Shown here piece after piece: positions 19,360-30,620 of a stretch of DNA of 64,000 bases (its first letter is position 1; every line of letters starts with the position of its first letter). The notes under the pieces were generated by a model that was not told where the DNA came from, did not search any database, and worked only from the letters and a program-made list of their open reading frames with translations. The stretch is from a virus, in IMG/VR virus record IMGVR_UViG_3300008259_000030, positions 19,490 to 83,489 of that record. One strand, given 5' to 3'. A program made the position numbers and the translations under genes.

Positions 19360-21843
19360 TTAGGTCATAGCTAACAGTTTAGAACGCTCTAATCCAACAT
19401 CTTGTTTTGCTACATCAATCATGCGATTAATATTACTATTTAAACGTTTTACTACATCTCTCATCGAGATCTGAGCACTTGTATTGATCACATTTTGAAG
19501 TTGTCCTGGTGATACTACTGCTTCTTTTCCGTGAAGCGTGGCCATTGTACCGCGTTTAAAGTTTCCAAACAATCCTCCAAGGGTTCCAAGAGTACCAGTA
19601 TTCATACCCATATAAGTTGAAGGATATTCTTTGCGTAACCTTTCTACTTCATCAGCATACTCTTTTCTCTCCATAATCCTTTGAATTTTAGGGAGATTTC
19701 TATTTTTTGTTTGGGCAAACAAAGCAGGATCAAACATTACTTGTCTTAAAGGATTTAGGTTTGTGCCTATTCCACGGATGCCTTTGTTTAAAAGATTAGC
19801 CACTGCTTCTCTTTGTAACAGCGTTAACCCTCCAAATTGATCTCTATCGTCTGGCATCGAAGCACCTGCCTGTGCTTTACGTTCTCTAAGTGCTAGAATT
19901 GCTGCGGTAAGAGCAGCATCTGTAACTCGACTGCCGCTGCCTCCTTCATAAGTGCTGTCGTAAGATCTAAAACGTCCATCTGAGCCTCTTAATAAATCTC
20001 TAATATAATATGTTTTGCCATCTATAACAACTTTTTCATCTTCTGGACTTACCGGCATCCTTCTTTCTTCTTTAGGCAAAATTAACTGGTCTCTATTTTC
20101 TCTGGCAAATCTAAGCCTAGCTTCAGCTTCTGCCGCCATCCGATCAAGGTCTGGACCAATTCCTATTTTTGCTAACCACTTTGCTGCACCTTCAACATTA
20201 AATGTTGAATATATTGCTTTTCGCATGTACATATGAAAATATATAATGGCCGCTTCAAACATGCTTTCAAATATATTTTTCATGTATACAAGCGTGTCAT
20301 CATCTGTGAGATTTGCAAAAAAGTTTTTTACATACGGTAACGCATCATTAGCTAATTGTATTAGATATTTGCTAAACGCTCTTAGTTGGTCGGGTATCAT
20401 AGCTATTTTAAATTCTTTGGCTAGTTCTTTCATGATAGGAAAGAATCCTTTTAATAGTGCTCGATAGACACGATATACCGATCTTTGAAATTTTCTTAGA
20501 GTATCTGTAAACGCATCTGTTTTTCCTTGCTCTTTTTTAGCTGCTTCAACCATCTTAACAAATTGACCTTCCATGTCTTTGCTTAGACCGCCTTGTTTAA
20601 TCATAAATTCCATTGCTGGTGTAAGAGCCTTAACTAGCTTTTTAGAACTTTCATTTCCCGATACTGAACCTTTTATTATACCTTCCAAATCTTTCATAGC
20701 TTCTTTAGAATTAGCTAATTGACTGCCTATGGTATTATTAACATAATCTTCAAATACTTTAGGACTAACACTGGTGTCTTTGGCCATTTTAATAATAGTA
20801 TCCATAGACCTTTCAAAACTTGGCCCTAACGCATACTGTAATGCTATTACAGTATCATTGATAGATTGAACACCTAATTCTCTAGATTTAAATAATTCTG
20901 CTCCTTGAGCACCAAATACCATAGAAAAACTCTGTAAAGCTGTTTCCATCCTAGCCTGCTGAGCAGGTAATAATTTTCCAACTTTTAGTTTATATGATAG
21001 GTCTTGGTTAGCTGCCGCTGCGGCTTCTTGACGCTGCTCTTTACCCATGCCTGTTATTTTTTGAAAAGCATCTATTTGACTAGCGTATTGTAAAAATTCG
21101 TTGCTAGTGCTATTAAGATTGTTTTCTGTTACAGCTTTTCCTCTTCTAGTTGCAGCATAGAATTCTAATAGTAAATCATTTTGTTGATATGTGTTATATC
21201 CCCATCGATCTAATATATCTGACACTCGATCAGAATCCATAAACATAGCAGCAGATAATTTTCGTAAATTATCTATACCGGTAGTCATTGTACCTCCGCC
21301 TAACGATACTAACGTTTCTGCGTTACTTCCAACCAACGATACAAGCTCGTCAGTAGACAATCCCATATCTAAAGCAGTTTCTTTAAATTTAAAAATACTA
21401 TAATTAAATGTTGCTCCGTGTTTGTTTGCTTCTCGCAGCCCGTCGTTCCAAGATTCTAAAGCCACTATAGTTTCTGTTACAATGCCGGCAAGATCACCTA
21501 AAGTGTCTCCCACAACTGGAAGTTTTTTAATTAAATCATCTTGTATAAATTTTCCGTAAGCACTGAGTTTATCTTCACCCCTAGCTATCATAGAGATAAA
21601 ATTCTTACCAGCACTAACTGTATTTGATAGTCCGGCAGTTAATGTAGTAAAACTTTTTTTTAGTAATTTAAGTGATGTACCAGCAGCACCAGCTTCGTCA
21701 GATACGTCGTCGCCGCCTCTATTATTGTTAGAGTTATCTTTATAGTATCTAACAATTTCTTGAAGCGTGGTTTCGGACGCAGCGTTGTTAATTACTCCGC
21801 TACCTAATTTTGAACTAAAGTATTCTACAGTATTTTTAGCCAT
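19360..21843 (-). CDS. Tape-measure-like tail/hub protein, 827 aa (no peptidase domain)
   Basis: Paralogue of the upstream 862-aa protein. Both start MAK-x-TVE and share 'NN-x-ASE-x-T' and a hydrophobic 'KLPVVGDTLGDLAGIVTETI' region (residues about 95-115). The C-terminal 'TGTLGTLGGLFGNF' plus 'LHGKEAVVSPGQL' is the motif typical of the ends of phage tape-measure proteins. The middle is long, helical and contains 'FFPIMKELAKEFKIAMIPDQL'-type amphipathic segments. No M23 domain is present. ATG and upstream stop overlap by one base (TAATG), so the pair is translationally coupled. The role inferred is tail-length determination or a hub component, equivalent in position to T4 gp29 but not alignable by eye. 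Confidence 0.65.
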   Translation of the reverse strand: MAKNTVEYFSSKLGSGVINNAASETTLQEIVRYYKDNSNNNRGGDDVSDEAGAAGTSLKLLKKSFTTLTAGLSNTVSAGKNFISMIARGEDKLSAYGKFIQDDLIKKLPVVGDTLGDLAGIVTETIVALESWNDGLREANKHGATFNYSIFKFKETALDMGLSTDELVSLVGSNAETLVSLGGGTMTTGIDNLRKLSAAMFMDSDRVSDILDRWGYNTYQQNDLLLEFYAATRRGKAVTENNLNSTSNEFLQYASQIDAFQKITGMGKEQRQEAAAAANQDLSYKLKVGKLLPAQQARMETALQSFSMVFGAQGAELFKSRELGVQSINDTVIALQYALGPSFERSMDTIIKMAKDTSVSPKVFEDYVNNTIGSQLANSKEAMKDLEGIIKGSVSGNESSKKLVKALTPAMEFMIKQGGLSKDMEGQFVKMVEAAKKEQGKTDAFTDTLRKFQRSVYRVYRALLKGFFPIMKELAKEFKIAMIPDQLRAFSKYLIQLANDALPYVKNFFANLTDDDTLVYMKNIFESMFEAAIIYFHMYMRKAIYSTFNVEGAAKWLAKIGIGPDLDRMAAEAEARLRFARENRDQLILPKEERRMPVSPEDEKVVIDGKTYYIRDLLRGSDGRFRSYDSTYEGGSGSRVTDAALTAAILALRERKAQAGASMPDDRDQFGGLTLLQREAVANLLNKGIRGIGTNLNPLRQVMFDPALFAQTKNRNLPKIQRIMERKEYADEVERLRKEYPSTYMGMNTGTLGTLGGLFGNFKRGTMATLHGKEAVVSPGQLQNVINTSAQISMRDVVKRLNSNINRMIDVAKQDVGLERSKLLAMT

Positions 21844-24431
21844 TATGCTATCGTCATTTGATTATTTTCTATGTAGGAAAGTTGAGATCTTGATAGATTA
21901 GTGCGTTCTCTCATTAACATTTCTAATCTTGCAAAATTTACATCTATAGATTCCAACAATTCTTTAGTGGCCATATTGCCAGCACCTGTCATAACATTAT
22001 TCATTTGCTCAGGAGTCATAACAGCTTTTGTACCTTCTAACATAACATCTGTAGCTGATCCAAAATCTTTAAACAAACTACCATAAGTTCCTAAAGTTCC
22101 TGTACTCATACCTGGCTTTATTAACGATGTAGGATCAAATTTTACTCCGTTGCGTCTAGCTTCTAAATGTAAATGTCGACCTGTAGAAGTTCCTGCTCCC
22201 GGATCGCCCTTGCCGCCTCCTGATATTCCTATCTCTGTGCCAGCCGTTACTGTACCGCCATGTAGTTTTCTAGTAAATTGGTCTTGTGTGTCTGTTTGGT
22301 GTAAATGACCGTAAAGTAATTCAACACCGTCAGCACCTAAAATTTTTGCATAGTATCCGTAACCTGATTCATATCCGTATGAAACTTTTCCGTCTATGCC
22401 GGCTCTTATTTTTGCTTTATCTGCCTTTACATCCACACCCGGATGTACACTTTCACGCATCACGTTACCATCAGCATCGCGATATTGACGTATATTACCA
22501 AATTCGCTGTTTATTGCTAAAGATGATCCTTTTCCTACGGGATTAAAAATAGCTAGTTTATCTTTTAATTCAGCAACTATTTTATCTGAAGCAGCTACTA
22601 CGCCCTGATCTTTTTTACCGGTTTCGGTTACTGAGCTTGCCCTACCACTCTTATTTGGTACTGCTGCCCCTCTTTCTGATTGTGGTGTATATCTTTCTGG
22701 TAACTTTGGACGAAGTATATTTTGTCTCTGTTCGTGATCTTCTAGGGCTTTTGCTAATGCGTTATCTCTATCTACAGCAAAATCGCCCATCCTATCTTTA
22801 TCAAACATGGTTTTAGCATGGTACATAAAATTAATGCCCATACGTTCAAAGAAATATGTTACTTCGTTCCAAATAAAGTCTCTGCCGTTTTCATCTCCTA
22901 GATATTTGAAAAATGTTATCACATCAGGCAGATACTTTTCAACACTATCTTTGATCCAGTTACCAAACGCTTTTACTTTACCTGGTAAATCTTGTCTTTC
23001 TAAAACTTTTCCTAAATCATCCAACAATGGATATAAAAAATCCATTAGCTGAAATTTTAAATCCTGCATAGCCATTTCAAAGTCATTGAGGAACTTAGTA
23101 ATTTCGTCTCTAGCTTTTTGTTCGTCTCTAGCTTTCTTAAACATGGCTCTAAGATCTTTTTCAGTTAACTTAGATACATCTCCGTATTTTACTAATTGAT
23201 TTAGAATAGGATTTATAGCAGCGGTAAGAGATTTAGCATCACCGTAACTAGCACCGGCAGCAGCTAATAATCCTTCTAAACCGGATGTTGATTTAGCAGA
23301 TTTTAGCATCACTGAAATAATATCATCTTCTATCCTACTAGACATTTTATCTATAGTAACATTAGTATCTAAAGCAGTGTTGATAGAATCTTTCATAGAC
23401 CTAACTAATTGCGGTTGTAATACCATTAAGTTTCTAGCACCTTCATCGCCCGGCGGCATTTGAAGATACAATGATTTAAACAGTTCAGCACCAGACTGGC
23501 CATACATAGCGGTGTAATTGGCTAACGTGTTAAGTAACTTAGATCGTTCTTTTTCATCTAGTTTTTGTAAAGCCATTTTGAATACAACGTCTTTAGTTGC
23601 TACAGCCATTTCTTCTTCTAATTTTTTTACACTTTTTCCTGTTAATGAAGTCAATCTCATTATGTTGAGTTGAAACTTTTCATAACTGTCTGCAACATCG
23701 GCATCTGAACGTTTATCTCTAAGTAATCCCCCGCCCATAATATCAATGTAACTAATCAATCCTTCATTAACATTCCTAGCATTCATACCCATTTGTCTTA
23801 GAGTTTGTGTTGCTTTGCCGCCATCTCTATTCAACAATCTGGATATTTTACTAAATCTCTCAGCACCTTCAGTAACTGTTTTTCCTAGGTTCAGCATCAC
23901 TGATGAGTTGCTAGAAATCATTTTCATATACGAATCAATATCCATAGCCGCATCCGTTGCTGCTTTTGAAGCTCTAAGGATACTGTTACCAAATGTTGCT
24001 CCAGTTTGAGTGCCTGTTTTTAAACTCTCATTCCAATCTTCAAACACTTCAATGCTGTCACTGATTATTCCACCTAGTCCACCTAACAGGCCTCCAACGA
24101 TAGGCAATTTAGCAATAACTTGATCATTTAATGTTTTGGTATAAGAACTCATCTTGGTGTTGCCTGTTAGCAACATTGCTCCCATACTGCCCACGGCACC
24201 TATTACGTTGCCAATCTGATTACCTAGACCGTTGGCTAATTTTGACATTACATCTAGATTTTTAGCTGGATTTTTTGTCTTGCTCGATCCGCCACCGCCG
24301 CCACCACCTGGAGATTTAGATTCTGATTTAATTGCGGCCAGTAGTTCACGCATAGTAGCCTCGCTAGCTATGTTGTTTAATACTGTACCGTCTAGTTCTC
24401 CGCCTAGGATTTCTACTGTAGTTTTTGCCAT
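21843..24431 (-). CDS. Tape-measure-like tail protein with M23 peptidase domain, 862 aa
   Basis: The N-terminal and central regions resemble the downstream paralogue, with 'KLPIVGGLLGGLGGIISDSI' (residues about 110-130) and long helical segments. Residues about 630-775 form an M23 (LytM-type) zinc endopeptidase. 'HPGVD' supplies His and Asp (near residue 660), 'YGHLH' follows, and 'GRHLHLEAR' gives the HxH pair, so all metal/catalytic residues are present. The C-terminus has the tape-measure motif 'TGTLGTYGSLFKDFGSATD' with 'LEGTKAVMTPEQM'. The peptidase probably cleaves cell-wall peptide crosslinks during DNA injection. It is the first gene of the minus-strand head/tail operon and has a late box at 24497-24490. 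Confidence 0.8.
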   Translation of the reverse strand: MAKTTVEILGGELDGTVLNNIASEATMRELLAAIKSESKSPGGGGGGGSSKTKNPAKNLDVMSKLANGLGNQIGNVIGAVGSMGAMLLTGNTKMSSYTKTLNDQVIAKLPIVGGLLGGLGGIISDSIEVFEDWNESLKTGTQTGATFGNSILRASKAATDAAMDIDSYMKMISSNSSVMLNLGKTVTEGAERFSKISRLLNRDGGKATQTLRQMGMNARNVNEGLISYIDIMGGGLLRDKRSDADVADSYEKFQLNIMRLTSLTGKSVKKLEEEMAVATKDVVFKMALQKLDEKERSKLLNTLANYTAMYGQSGAELFKSLYLQMPPGDEGARNLMVLQPQLVRSMKDSINTALDTNVTIDKMSSRIEDDIISVMLKSAKSTSGLEGLLAAAGASYGDAKSLTAAINPILNQLVKYGDVSKLTEKDLRAMFKKARDEQKARDEITKFLNDFEMAMQDLKFQLMDFLYPLLDDLGKVLERQDLPGKVKAFGNWIKDSVEKYLPDVITFFKYLGDENGRDFIWNEVTYFFERMGINFMYHAKTMFDKDRMGDFAVDRDNALAKALEDHEQRQNILRPKLPERYTPQSERGAAVPNKSGRASSVTETGKKDQGVVAASDKIVAELKDKLAIFNPVGKGSSLAINSEFGNIRQYRDADGNVMRESVHPGVDVKADKAKIRAGIDGKVSYGYESGYGYYAKILGADGVELLYGHLHQTDTQDQFTRKLHGGTVTAGTEIGISGGGKGDPGAGTSTGRHLHLEARRNGVKFDPTSLIKPGMSTGTLGTYGSLFKDFGSATDVMLEGTKAVMTPEQMNNVMTGAGNMATKELLESIDVNFARLEMLMRERTNLSRSQLSYIENNQMTIA

Positions 24432-24508: not shown

Positions 24509-25402
24509 ATGCCAGATTTTGATCCAAGTAAGTTTCAGTCTCAACAAAATGCTGCTCCAGCAGTTAATCCTCTAGCGGCGTTTTTTAGACAACCAAAGAT
24601 CTATGTTTCTCTGCCGTCAAAAGGTGAATTTTATCCGGAAGGGTCGTTAAAAAAGACCACTAACAACGAATATCCTGTGTTCGCCATGACGGCCAGAGAT
24701 GAATTGTTATTTAAAACCCCAGACGCATTGATGAACGGGGTAGCAACTAGAGAAGTTATCAGTAGTTGCATCCCTAACATTTTAGATCCTTGGAAGATTC
24801 CAAGTCTTGATGTTGATGCGGTGTTATCAGCAATTAGGATTGCCACATATGGCGAGGAAATGGAAGTTTCTGTTAGATGCCCGCAATGTGAAAATCTTAA
24901 TGACTCTATGGTTGATCTACGTGATGTGTTGGATAGATTAAACAAAATTAATTTTGATACCAAAGTTGAAATTGGTTCAGACATGATTGTGTATCTGCGT
25001 CCGATGACTTACGAAGAAATTACTAAAACTGCGTTGAAAGCGTTTGAGCATCAGCGAATTTTTCAAGTAATCAACGATGATACAATTGAAGAGCAGGAAA
25101 AATTAAAAATTTTCCAAGAAAGTTTTATTAAGTTAACCGATTTAACTATAGATACTGCTGTAAAGTGTATTACAAAGATTGAAAGTTCTGCTGGTATGAC
25201 TGAAGATCCTGCTTTTATAAAAGAATTTTTACAAAAGACTGATAAGTCTGTGTTTGAACAGATTAACACCGCAGTGAGCAAAACTAGAGAAACTGGAAAC
25301 CTTAGCAGCTTTCATAGTAAATGCCAAAAATGCGAACACGAATGGGACGTTGAGCTTACTATGGACCAATCGGATTTTTTCGGCAACGGCTTTCGACGTT
25401 AA
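24509..25402 (+). CDS. 26: Baseplate hub/tail assembly protein gp26
   Basis: 297 aa, matching the T4 gp26 family as found in marine T4-like phages. 'PKIYVSLPSKGEFYPEGS' lies near the start, 'MTARDELLFKTPDALMNG' at about residue 50, then 'LRPMTYEEITKTALKAFEHQ'. Two Cys pairs, 'CPQCENL' (about residue 124) and 'CQKCEHEW' (about residue 272), look like a split zinc-binding ribbon, absent from shorter T4 gp26 (208 aa). It stands alone on the plus strand with its own exact late promoter. The last codons overlap a -1 frame that continues for 76 codons after a slippery T-TTT-TTC (25375-25381), so it probably also yields a 367-residue frameshift product. Confidence 0.88.
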   Translation: MPDFDPSKFQSQQNAAPAVNPLAAFFRQPKIYVSLPSKGEFYPEGSLKKTTNNEYPVFAMTARDELLFKTPDALMNGVATREVISSCIPNILDPWKIPSLDVDAVLSAIRIATYGEEMEVSVRCPQCENLNDSMVDLRDVLDRLNKINFDTKVEIGSDMIVYLRPMTYEEITKTALKAFEHQRIFQVINDDTIEEQEKLKIFQESFIKLTDLTIDTAVKCITKIESSAGMTEDPAFIKEFLQKTDKSVFEQINTAVSKTRETGNLSSFHSKCQKCEHEWDVELTMDQSDFFGNGFRR

Positions 25403-25434
25403 GTATCCCCGAGGTATTAGCCGAGTCGAAAGCC
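25375..25434 (+). promoter_or_regulatory. Candidate -1 programmed ribosomal frameshift signal (gp26 to gp51-like)
   Basis: Seen directly: in the gp26 frame GAT-TTT-TTC, the heptamer T-TTT-TTC (25375-25381) fits the X-XXY-YYZ slippery rule. A 6-nt spacer GGCAAC follows. A perfect 10-bp inverted repeat GGCTTTCGAC (25388-25397) / GTCGAAAGCC (25425-25434) encloses a 27-nt loop that contains the gp26 stop codon. A -1 shift at the heptamer leads, from CGG at 25381, straight into the open frame ending at 25611. This arrangement is the standard -1 frameshift layout known from tail-assembly genes such as lambda G-T. Confidence 0.75.
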
Positions 25435-25611
25435 CTTGATGAACAGGCAAAGCAGATCAAACTGGAAGCTATGCGTTCAGTTTGGTATATGCGTGGCGGA
25501 TTGTCATTTGCCGAAGCCATGAACCTCAGCTGGGACGAAAGAGAGTTAGTCCTTGAGATAGTCAAGGACAACATGGATATTACTAAGAGTTCTGGACTAC
25601 CGTTTTTTTAA
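25381..25611 (+). CDS. 51: gp51-like baseplate hub assembly factor, probably made as a -1 frameshift extension of gp26
   Basis: Open frame of 76 codons in the -1 frame relative to gp26. It reads RQRLSTLSIPEVLAES at the overlap and carries 'MRSVWYMRGGLSFAEAMNLS', 'WDERELVLEIVKDNM' and the C-terminal 'TKSSGLPFF'. The position after gp26 is that of gene 51 in T4, and the 'WYMRGG' and terminal motifs agree with what I recall of small gp51-like proteins in marine T4-like phages. The first ATG is only at codon 31 (25471) and has no convincing Shine-Dalgarno, so an independent start would give just 46 aa. A fusion through the frameshift site is the simpler reading. The stop codon (25609-25611) overlaps the convergent minus-strand gene's stop by 3 nt. 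Confidence 0.65.
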   Translation, partial: RQRLSTLSIPEVLAESKALDEQAKQIKLEAMRSVWYMRGGLSFAEAMNLSWDERELVLEIVKDNMDITKSSGLPFF

Positions 25612-27172: not shown

Positions 27173-27607
27173 TTATTTTGCCTTTTTATGTTCTTCTAGA
27201 CGCTGTCTAAGTATGTTTGATCCGCCAACTCTGACGTTTATAATGCCATTATAATAGTCATCTGTTTCTAAAACCCTGCGTTCAAACTGCTCTCTTGCCT
27301 CTAGATATGACATTTCTGCCTTAGATTTACAAAGATAAATGATTTCTCTGGTGAAGTTTTCCGGACCTAGTGCTTGGACATCTGCTTGTAGCCTATCAGA
27401 AGAACTCCAGTAGTCACGCCAATCGCTTTCTACTACAGATCTTCTTTTAAGTTTTTTGCCTTTGAGTGGTGGTTTTGTGCGTTTAAACTGTGTTAGTTTC
27501 TTGCCTATGTATTTTTGTCCGGTCTTAAGATTCGTGATTAGATAAACAAAGCCAATGTAGCCTTCTGGAATTTCATCTACAGGTTGATTTTGATATGTCC
27601 ACAGCAC
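27173..27607 (-). CDS. GIY-YIG domain protein (putative endonuclease), 144 aa
   Basis: 'GFVYLITNLKTGQKYIGKK' near residues 18-36 is the GIY-YIG motif pair (here FVY and YIG). 'EMSYLEAREQFERRVL' supplies the helix with the catalytic Glu, and 'DYYNGI' the conserved Asn. Proteins of this layout ('ESDWRDYWSSS' in the middle) are common beside gene 46 in marine T4-like phages and are stand-alone rather than intron-encoded. The start is GTG at 27607, directly after the TGA of the 76-aa gene (TGAGTG), so it is translationally coupled. Nicking or processing of DNA is expected, but the target is unknown. Confidence 0.75.
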   Translation of the reverse strand: MLWTYQNQPVDEIPEGYIGFVYLITNLKTGQKYIGKKLTQFKRTKPPLKGKKLKRRSVVESDWRDYWSSSDRLQADVQALGPENFTREIIYLCKSKAEMSYLEAREQFERRVLETDDYYNGIINVRVGGSNILRQRLEEHKKAK

Positions 27608-27838
27608 TCACTTAGTTATTTTTGGGGGTCTGCCTAACATGCCTTTTCTGGCTCGCTTACGTGTTTGCCTTTTTTCTTGAATTTCTACTCGTCTTATACT
27701 TGCTTCGTTGCGTATTTCTGATAGCCAATACCGTGCCTTTATGCCTGCCTCGTCAGATCCTTTGTACTCAAAGCGGTCTTGCCACTTGAAGTACTCTTGG
27801 AATGCTTTAATCATACGATCGTGAGCATCTGTGCTCAA
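27608..27838 (-). CDS. Conserved small basic protein next to gp46, 76 aa
   Basis: 'MIKAFQEYFKWQDRFEYKG' and 'SDEAGIKARYWLSEIR', followed by an Arg/Lys-rich C-terminus ending 'KGMLGRPPKITK'. The pattern is familiar from small proteins adjacent to gene 46 in other marine T4-like phages, but no function is known to me. The 'GRPPK' end looks like an AT-hook-type DNA-binding tail (inference). The ATG overlaps the gp46 stop by 4 nt and its TGA abuts the GTG of the GIY-YIG gene, so it is part of the gp47-gp46 operon. Confidence 0.7.
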   Translation of the reverse strand: MSTDAHDRMIKAFQEYFKWQDRFEYKGSDEAGIKARYWLSEIRNEASIRRVEIQEKRQTRKRARKGMLGRPPKITK

Positions 27839-29613
27839 GCTACGATCTCCACATCATTTGAATAACTGGTAAAACCGTTTTCTTTTATTACTTTCAGCAC
27901 ATGATTTACCCTGCTGGTTAGATCATCCCTGTGCGATATTAAGAATACATTCTTGTTACGTTCACGGGTCATGCGTTTCAATACTGCAATAGAACTTTCA
28001 ACACCGCTGGAATCCATGCCGCTATCAACTAGTTCGTCAATAAACAACAAGTTGATGGGCTGATATAGGTTTTCCCATACATCGCGGAACGCCCAACTTA
28101 GACTTAATATAAGTCTATTACGTTCTCCACGGCTGAGATTATCAAAGTCTAGGTCTTGTCCTAGTTGTGTAATGATTACTGATAGATCGTTTTGGAATTC
28201 TACTATATGCGGTAACCCAATTTTGTCTAGATAATAAGTCAAACGCTGATTTAAGAACGCTAGATTTTGATCAATAATACGTTTGCGTACAAAACTGTCT
28301 TTGTTAGTCAACAGTTTGTATAAAAACTCTTGATGATCCTTAAGTTTTGTTAACTCATTAACTGCTTCCCAGTCTATTTCTTGTACTGCGGTATTTTTTA
28401 AATCATCGATTTGTTCGGCATAGGGATTGGTTTCTGCTTCTTTTATAGTGATATCTTTTTCTAAACCTGAAAGCGTATTTTTGTGATTTAATGCTTCTTC
28501 AAGATTATCATAACTTACCTGCGGACACGCATTAAGTTCGCCCAATAATCCTAGTGCTTCTTTGAGAGTATCTAATTCTTTTTGGTGTTCGTTAACAGAA
28601 TTAGTACTGTCTTCTAACTGTTTGGTTTTAGTAGAGACCATACTTTCATGTTTTTCGTCATGTAAGTCTTGGCCACAGCTATGACATTTATGATCAGCTA
28701 AAAGATTTAATTCTTTTTCTAGCTTGTCTAAGGTTTTTTGTTCTTTTTCAAAAGTAGTAACCTGTTTTGCGATCATCGCAGTTAGATTATCGTGTTCTTT
28801 TTTGTTTTTGTTCCACTCTATTAGAGCACGTTGATTAATAATTTCCTGATCAATATCGATAGTACCTAGTATGTCAATACTTTTTCTAAGGTTCTCTAAG
28901 GCTTTTTCTTTTTGATCTTCCCACAGTTTTTGTTTACGTTCTAAACTTTCAATACTCTGTTGTATTTTTTCGTTAGAGATCTTAATAGTCTCTATCCTTG
29001 TGTTTTCTGTGGCAATAGCATCTTTGGTCTGTTTGACTTGTTCTTTGAGATTTTCGGCTTTCTCGCTGAGTAAAGTAATTCCCAGCAGTTGCTCAATAAT
29101 ACTTCGTTGATCAGCAGCCTTCATTGACAAGAACGGCTCAGTGTAGGTATTCAAAGCCACAAGATGTTTGAACATTTCGTGTGTCATTCCAAACATTTCT
29201 TCAATGGCTTTTTGTGTTTCTCTAGAATCGCCCTGACTCTCGTCTAGGTCATCTAACTCTTGTTCTTGACCGTTAACACTAAACTTTAATAAGTTGGGCT
29301 TACGTCCACGTTCAATATGATATTCAATACCGTCTTTTTCAAACGTTACAGTAGCTAACATTCCTTTGCCGTTGATCTTGTTAACGAGATTGTCTTTCTT
29401 AATGTTAGTTAAAGCATTGCCGTAGATAGCATAACTTAGTCCATTAATGATTGTAGTTTTACCAGTGCCGTTACGAGCACCGCTGTCATCTCCGCCTAGG
29501 TCTAAATTTTCACCTAACACTAAAGTTAATTGTCCGCGGTCAAAATCAATAGCTTGGGTTTGATTCCCCACACTCATAAAATTTTTAACAGTAAGATTTT
29601 TTATTTTAATCAT
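27835..29613 (-). CDS. 46: Recombination endonuclease subunit gp46 (Rad50-like ATPase)
   Basis: SMC-type ATPase that with gp47 resects DNA ends for recombination-dependent replication and host DNA breakdown. Walker A is 'GARNGTGKTT' (residues about 45-54) after the family-typical insertion. A long coiled coil (about 170-440) is broken by the zinc hook 'CHSCG' near residue 309. The ABC signature 'NLSRGERNRLILSL' lies at about 490, Walker B 'INLLFIDELVDSGMD' at about 520, and the His switch 'FLISHRDD' near the end. The length of 592 aa is near T4 gp46 (560 aa). It overlaps gp47 by 4 nt (ATGA). Confidence 0.95.
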   Translation of the reverse strand: MIKIKNLTVKNFMSVGNQTQAIDFDRGQLTLVLGENLDLGGDDSGARNGTGKTTIINGLSYAIYGNALTNIKKDNLVNKINGKGMLATVTFEKDGIEYHIERGRKPNLLKFSVNGQEQELDDLDESQGDSRETQKAIEEMFGMTHEMFKHLVALNTYTEPFLSMKAADQRSIIEQLLGITLLSEKAENLKEQVKQTKDAIATENTRIETIKISNEKIQQSIESLERKQKLWEDQKEKALENLRKSIDILGTIDIDQEIINQRALIEWNKNKKEHDNLTAMIAKQVTTFEKEQKTLDKLEKELNLLADHKCHSCGQDLHDEKHESMVSTKTKQLEDSTNSVNEHQKELDTLKEALGLLGELNACPQVSYDNLEEALNHKNTLSGLEKDITIKEAETNPYAEQIDDLKNTAVQEIDWEAVNELTKLKDHQEFLYKLLTNKDSFVRKRIIDQNLAFLNQRLTYYLDKIGLPHIVEFQNDLSVIITQLGQDLDFDNLSRGERNRLILSLSWAFRDVWENLYQPINLLFIDELVDSGMDSSGVESSIAVLKRMTRERNKNVFLISHRDDLTSRVNHVLKVIKENGFTSYSNDVEIVA

Positions 29614-30620
29614 AAGTCTCTGTAAATGTCCAACAATAATTTTTTGTCATAGGAATCGCTTTCAATAGCATCAATCTGATTCATCACAATCGTATCAACT
29701 GATTCAAAATTAACGTCTATGGCCACTGCATTGCTTTCTACCTCTACTTTTTCAGGTATAAGCATAAGTTCTCTAAGATTATACTGAGGTATAAACTGTT
29801 CTTTGATAAAGTTAGCCTCTTCAAATGTAATAGGTAGATCTATAGTAACTCTACAGTGCATTTTTTCTTTAAGCAAAGAATCTGGACTATCTATAATTTG
29901 GCTTAACTTGTAGGTTCTAAACGTAGGCTGTCCGGGCCAAATACGATATTCTGGTTTTCCGCCCCACTCTAACATCATCATGCCGCGGTCGTCGTCTCCG
30001 GCATCGGCATAGTTGTGCGGAAAAGCATTACCAATGTAAGTGATATTCCTGCTAGTCTGACGCTTATGGAAGTGTCCAGAGAATACATATTCTTGATTTA
30101 CAAAATGTGTGCTCTGTAATTGTCCATGATCGGGCATCTGTACCATAGCATTCATGTAGAAATTTGGAAGCTCAAGATGTCCAAAAATATAACGACTCTT
30201 GATCTTAGGAACCTTTTGCCATTCATCACCTACTAGCCACGGTAGAATAGTAACATCGCCCTCAGTGAACGGATCTCTAATAGGTACTACATTAGGAAAC
30301 AATCTCATAAACTCTATAGAGTTAATTTCACGTTTATCTTTATAAAATAAATCATGGTTTCCTAAAATAAAATATACTTTTTCAAAGTTTTGGCTTAGAC
30401 GTTCTAGATTTGAAACGGTATAGTTCATGGTACTGACATCAGTGGTCGCACGATTGTGATGCCAGTCACCTAAAAATATAGCAGTTTCACACCCTTCATC
30501 TTTGGCAGTGTCGCAAAACCATTTGACAAACTCTTCACAATCGGCATTATGCGTTCGACTGCCTGATTTTAATCCAAAATGTATATCTGTAAAACACGCT
30601 GCTTTTTTGAATAGACTCAT
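29610..30620 (-). CDS. 47: Recombination endonuclease subunit gp47 (Mre11-like nuclease)
   Basis: Metallophosphoesterase partner of gp46. All Mre11 motifs are visible: 'TDIHFG' (Asp12, His14), 'LGDWHH' (about residue 50), 'LGNHD' (about 86-90), 'GHLELPNF' and 'SGHFHKRQ' (about 190). At 336 aa it matches T4 gp47 (339 aa). The start is ATG at 30620 with no Shine-Dalgarno; a sigma70-like promoter ends only about 6 nt before it, so the mRNA may be nearly leaderless. It is the first gene of the operon 47-46-76aa-GIY-YIG. Confidence 0.95.
   Translation of the reverse strand: MSLFKKAACFTDIHFGLKSGSRTHNADCEEFVKWFCDTAKDEGCETAIFLGDWHHNRATTDVSTMNYTVSNLERLSQNFEKVYFILGNHDLFYKDKREINSIEFMRLFPNVVPIRDPFTEGDVTILPWLVGDEWQKVPKIKSRYIFGHLELPNFYMNAMVQMPDHGQLQSTHFVNQEYVFSGHFHKRQTSRNITYIGNAFPHNYADAGDDDRGMMMLEWGGKPEYRIWPGQPTFRTYKLSQIIDSPDSLLKEKMHCRVTIDLPITFEEANFIKEQFIPQYNLRELMLIPEKVEVESNAVAIDVNFESVDTIVMNQIDAIESDSYDKKLLLDIYRDL

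Follow-up and report, generated by a model that had tools for sequence, protein, structure and literature searches.

How is the end of gene 26 decoded in giant-phage relatives of T4, and is the gp51-type reading frame beyond it a gene of its own or an extension of gp26? The question is raised by a locus in the window, i.e., the stretch of 64,000 nucleotides analyzed here, which belongs to an 83-kb IMG/VR virus record. The original prediction was that ribosomes shift to the -1 frame near the gp26 stop and fuse gp26 to a gp51-like protein, in the manner of the lambda tail assembly chaperones gpG and gpGT. At the level of sequence, our analysis supports this interpretation. We regard as very likely the explanation that a stimulated -1 shift yields two chaperone products from what was ancestrally a single gene, and that this gene was duplicated in T4; the shift itself is inferred, in the absence of peptide, ribosome-profiling or reporter data.

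The window virus is a giant-phage relative of T4. Among longer sequences, the closest to it is a 270-kb contig whose gp26 is 92% identical; among named phages, the closest are jumbo myoviruses, for example Sinorhizobium phage Phosso and Agrobacterium phage Atu_ph07. The gene 26 product is a zinc-ribbon-like protein of the T4_baseplate family (PF12322, E 4.5e-16, 59.6 bits against a curated cut-off of 24.5) and also matched phrog_150, "baseplate hub" (E 3.9e-21). The divergent neighbor of gp26, which occupies the same position in relatives (tblastn), is probably tape-measure-like; the evidence is weak and includes a TMP_2 match below the cut-off (E 8.6e-4). This protein and the large protein in tandem with it matched the same region in relatives and are thus probably paralogous. 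Features of the locus are listed in Table 1. Elsewhere on the minus strand, a 144-aa protein (27173-27607) matched phrog_447, named NAD synthetase, and homing endonuclease profiles, and two adjoining ORFs (27835-30620) resemble, by eye, the T4 gp46/gp47 recombination nuclease subunits. A gp46 exonuclease is likewise found nearby in the Atu_ph07 record.

Table 1. Features of the gene 26 locus and its neighbors, in window coordinates
Feature	Coordinates	Strand	Remarks
Large protein, 827 aa	19360..21843	-	In tandem with the 862-aa protein
Probable tape-measure-like protein, 862 aa, M23 peptidase domain	21843..24431	-	PF01551, E 3e-12
Gene 26 homologue (0 frame; short product, 297 aa)	24509..25402	+	Matches PF12322 and phrog_150
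Slippery heptamer T-TTT-TTC, X-XXY-YYZ phase	25375..25381	+	Codons GAT TTT TTC at 25373-25381
Spacer, 6 nt	25382..25387	+	
Stem 5' arm GGCTTTCGAC, 10 bp	25388..25397	+	Pairs with GTCGAAAGCC
Stem 3' arm GTCGAAAGCC, 10 bp	25425..25434	+	Pairs with GGCTTTCGAC
gp26 0-frame stop TAA	25400..25402	+	Within the 27-nt loop of the stem
-1 frame extension, 76 codons and TAA (25609-25611)	25381..25611	+	Probable relative of the gp51 C-terminal domain

The predicted signal, in which the heptamer is followed by a short spacer and a stem whose loop holds the gp26 stop, was recovered position for position. The -1 frame, which begins with CGG CAA after the slip, was indeed open to the predicted length, giving a fused form of 291 + 76 = 367 aa beside the short product. 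Folding of the junction gave -22.0 kcal/mol (z -3.7), and none of 200 shuffles folded equally well. It had also been claimed that the extension has no usable start, and this holds for the window, where no ATG, GTG or TTG occurs before codon 31, which already lies within the conserved domain.

Comparison with relatives provided the strongest evidence. Every one of the 145 scored loci, which dereplicate to 58, had NNT-TTT-TT[C/T] in frame with gp26 and an open -1 frame behind it, so heptamer, phase and open frame were kept wherever they were scored. The checks by which the original prediction could have failed thus went in its favor. These loci include jumbo phages (RaK2, 121Q, PA5oct and Atu_ph07), cyanophages (P-SSM2 and S-PM2) as well as Cr30, phiM12, phiW-14 and KVP40, and the slip site and -1 frame persist down to 26-28% protein identity. 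In 42 viral-contig relatives and in Phosso, Atu_ph07, PA5oct and 121Q, T-TTT-TTC was present and the -1 frame stayed open for about 70-77 codons. The same arrangement was detected in Vibrio phage 2.275.O, Munch, RaK2, CBB, GAP32, JNE01 and a 595-kb uncultured phage; the site reads TTTTTTT in Stenotrophomonas phage CM1. When classical T4-superfamily genomes were searched with PF12322, a single gene was found in each of P-SSM2, S-PM2, KVP40, HTVC008M, ViI, phiM12, phiW-14 and Cr30, and all of these except ViI had TTTTTTC or TTTTTTT, with the gp51-type domain encoded beyond it in the -1 frame. In 80 further cyanophage loci (46 distinct junctions), the heptamer was TTTTTTC without exception. The suggestion that the slip site is general in the T4 family thus stands for most superfamily lineages sampled but not for T4 itself, which lacks the shift and has divergent paralogues 26 and 51.

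Several features of this conservation are specific to the site. Other Phe-Phe dipeptides in the scored genes were slippery in only 3 of 36 cases. The codon preceding the slip encodes D, N, S, H, Y, R, G or A, yet its third base is always T. Among relatives, the 0-frame stop comes anywhere between 3 and 63 nt after the slip, yet slip and -1 frame are retained throughout, so the slip site does not simply mark where the gene ends. Under the assumption of independent rows, the observed heptamer conservation has a chance of about 1e-24; the rows are related, so this significance is overstated. A +1 shift in IME-SM1 was considered and rejected as a probable one-base undercall, given that 14 of 16 matching records have one base more and that Moby reads TTTTTTC. 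The IME-SM1 record has five T where related Stenotrophomonas phages have six, leading to annotation of a wrong 280-aa gp26.

The extension is a real coding region under strong purifying selection: beyond the 0-frame stop, dN/dS was about 0.03-0.2 for the window clade, with similar values elsewhere, in agreement with the expectation of a conserved protein. Its description as gp51-like applies to the C-terminal ~45-60 aa of T4 gp51 and not to the rest of that protein. Even this relationship is indirect: direct comparison of the jumbo-phage extension with the T4 gp51 C-terminus was too weak to be accepted alone (profile probability 4%), and a bridge through the cyanophages is needed, whose extension matched the T4-type gp51 C-terminus (E 5e-10, probability 97%) and, less securely, the window-type extension (E 9e-5, probability 59%).

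We propose that ribosomes would undergo a programmed -1 shift at T-TTT-TTC, stimulated by the downstream hairpin. One gene would then give mostly short gp26 and, less often, gp26 with a gp51-type C-terminal domain, the ratio being inferred. Conservation of the stem was borne out only in part. Stems occur in many clades (mean z -2.2 over 56 rows, below -2 in 28 of the 56), but their sequences differ from clade to clade, and z is near zero in some RaK2/Munch-type rows. In the window clade, all 10 pairs are retained in four distinct sequences, including one compensatory A-U to U-A change; two clades show a single compensatory pair apiece, and covariation remains weak evidence. In dnaX-type -1 signals, a Shine-Dalgarno (SD)-like element about 10 nt upstream accompanies the heptamer and the downstream hairpin. 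Cyanophage junctions are alike in all three elements, with an SD-like GGAGGG about 9 nt upstream of the heptamer that may also stimulate the shift in cyanophages and their allies. The window clade differs in that the hairpin is present but a strong SD-like element is not.

The alternative that survives best, although we consider it improbable, is that the -1 ORF stands alone as a small gene, "gp51", with translation from its own start or by termination-reinitiation, and that the run of six T reflects only a conserved Phe-Phe. Databases annotate the extension in this way in KVP40, P-SSM2 and 121Q, and cyanophages and KVP40 have an ATG in frame 2-3 codons after the slip (1-3 codons when several jumbo phages are included). 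A usable start is thus missing in the window clade but possible in cyanophages and KVP40, in which reinitiation cannot be excluded. Ackermannviridae are also relevant here. A gp51-type piece follows gp26 in the -1 frame in ViI, 3M and Vibrio 1.255.O, no TTTTTT heptamer was found at the gp26 junction in the members examined, and some of these junctions carry a TAATG overlap (ViI has no ordinary start there); reinitiation may have replaced the shift in this family. Against a separate gene, the PA5oct extension has no ATG, GTG or TTG at all, and those of the window clade, RaK2 and CM1 have none close to the slip. In the scored loci, the slip site was retained in all while starts were not, and the -1 frame was open across the slip everywhere. 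Moreover, the cyanophage GGAGGG is positioned for the slip and not for the ATG, which sits within a hairpin, and T4 has the same domain fused in frame to a gp26-type protein.

Slippage of RNA polymerase on the T run, which would yield mixed products without ribosomal frameshifting, is less probable still. In its favor, all cases contain six consecutive T; however, the run has not been lengthened, since 55 of the 58 dereplicated rows have just six T and then C, its codon phase is fixed, and the accompanying SD-like and hairpin elements are of the ribosomal type. Finally, a functionless heptamer present by chance in one genome can be set aside: TTTTTTC is about as frequent in the window as expected (31 observed, 29.9 expected), so that the case rests on conservation, and its retention in every scored locus, together with purifying selection on the extension, rules chance out.

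If the -1 shift is the preferred reading, its absence from T4 needs to be accounted for. T4 gp26 and gp51 both match PF12322 (phrog_150) over the full extent of the family model, gp51 having an extra C-terminal stretch. They are paralogues, gp26 the short form and gp51 the long form with the domain in frame. In the predicted structure of a T4-like gp51, the C-terminal stretch forms terminal helices following the shared core. The C-terminal domain of T4 gp51 is thus of the type predicted for the frameshift product; the difference is that T4 has two divergent duplicated genes and no slip site. Two PF12322 genes were detected only in T4 and four related genomes, with a single gene in the other records searched. 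The slip site was observed in one-gene phages and was absent from two-gene phages, Ackermannviridae being the exception. In two-gene phages, gp26 lacks the heptamer and stops close to where the slip used to be, and in Tevenvirinae the C-terminal EFFELL is encoded with TTC TTT. Both genes are in tandem on the same strand in RB43. In a tree of the shared core, gp51 rows formed one group (100/99) and single-gene rows another (99/96), with the gp26 of RB43 and Aeromonas 31 as long branches; the root is undetermined, and the grouping is compatible with a duplication in the T4 lineage. We infer that the frameshifted single gene is probably ancestral in the T4 superfamily, and that in the T4 lineage (Tevenvirinae and RB43) its two products would have become the duplicated genes 26 and 51, with loss of the slip site. 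Two further observations concern gp51 annotation: it ends at 120 aa in one T4-like phage although similarity continues, and two short baseplate proteins of Klebsiella phage KPV15 match the gp51 model.

A function for the two products can be suggested from T4, whose gp26 and gp51 have been classed as chaperones of hub assembly; gp51 is required yet absent from the virion, and gp26 is contested (PMC3004832). Most likely, both products act as hub/tail assembly chaperones in the fashion of lambda gpG/gpGT, a role that rests on T4 genetics and analogy, with the mechanism inferred. With lambda (Xu, Hendrix and Duda 2004, via PMC5009743), the gp26 system would share a -1 shift near the gene end that gives a short and a C-terminally extended product (inferred here from the sequence signal), products tied to tail assembly and, on weak evidence, a gene beside a probable tape-measure gene. 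The parallel with lambda lies in architecture and in T4 chaperone genetics, and no homology to lambda-type chaperones was detected. gp26 is larger than gpG, zinc-ribbon-like, without detected gpG homology and with T-TTT-TTC as its slip site, and T4 genetics links the gp26/gp51 pair to the baseplate hub instead. Pfam and PHROG profile searches gave no match to known tail assembly chaperones, and nothing significant was found in a PDB fold search with gp26 (pLDDT 78) and a T4-like gp51 (pLDDT 85). Hits in a viral fold library were mainly relatives of gp26/gp51, with a single weak hit to a phage Moon protein named "tape measure chaperone".

The open-access papers searched contained no account of frameshifting at gene 26/51; most subscription papers lay outside the search. 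The model bears on two published oddities. Sullivan et al. 2010 reported that gp51 of cyanophages and a marine vibriophage lacks the first ~200 residues, which was left unexplained (PMC3037559). This short gp51 (phrog_634 in cyanophages and KVP40) has the same C-terminal domain in the -1 frame directly after gp26 and is annotated as a truncated stand-alone gene, whereas we read it as the tail of a gp26 fusion. In addition, a 2016 recoding review described the tail G-T frameshift as conserved among long-tailed phages except T4 (PMC5009743). Both the truncated gp51 and the T4 exception would follow from one frameshift model.

The model also has consequences for annotation: the KVP40-type extension was found in 523 phage records, mostly called a separate gene or left unannotated, and hundreds of records would be affected. 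For the T4 superfamily, a single mechanism would cover both the short marine gp51 and the position of T4 as the G-T exception. On balance, and with less assurance than for the shift, we favor the view that the ancestral tail used frameshifted gp26/gp26-51 as the equivalent of gpG/gpGT, that T4 split the two products by duplication and lost the slip site, and that T4 gp26 and gp51 may be the missing chaperone pair.
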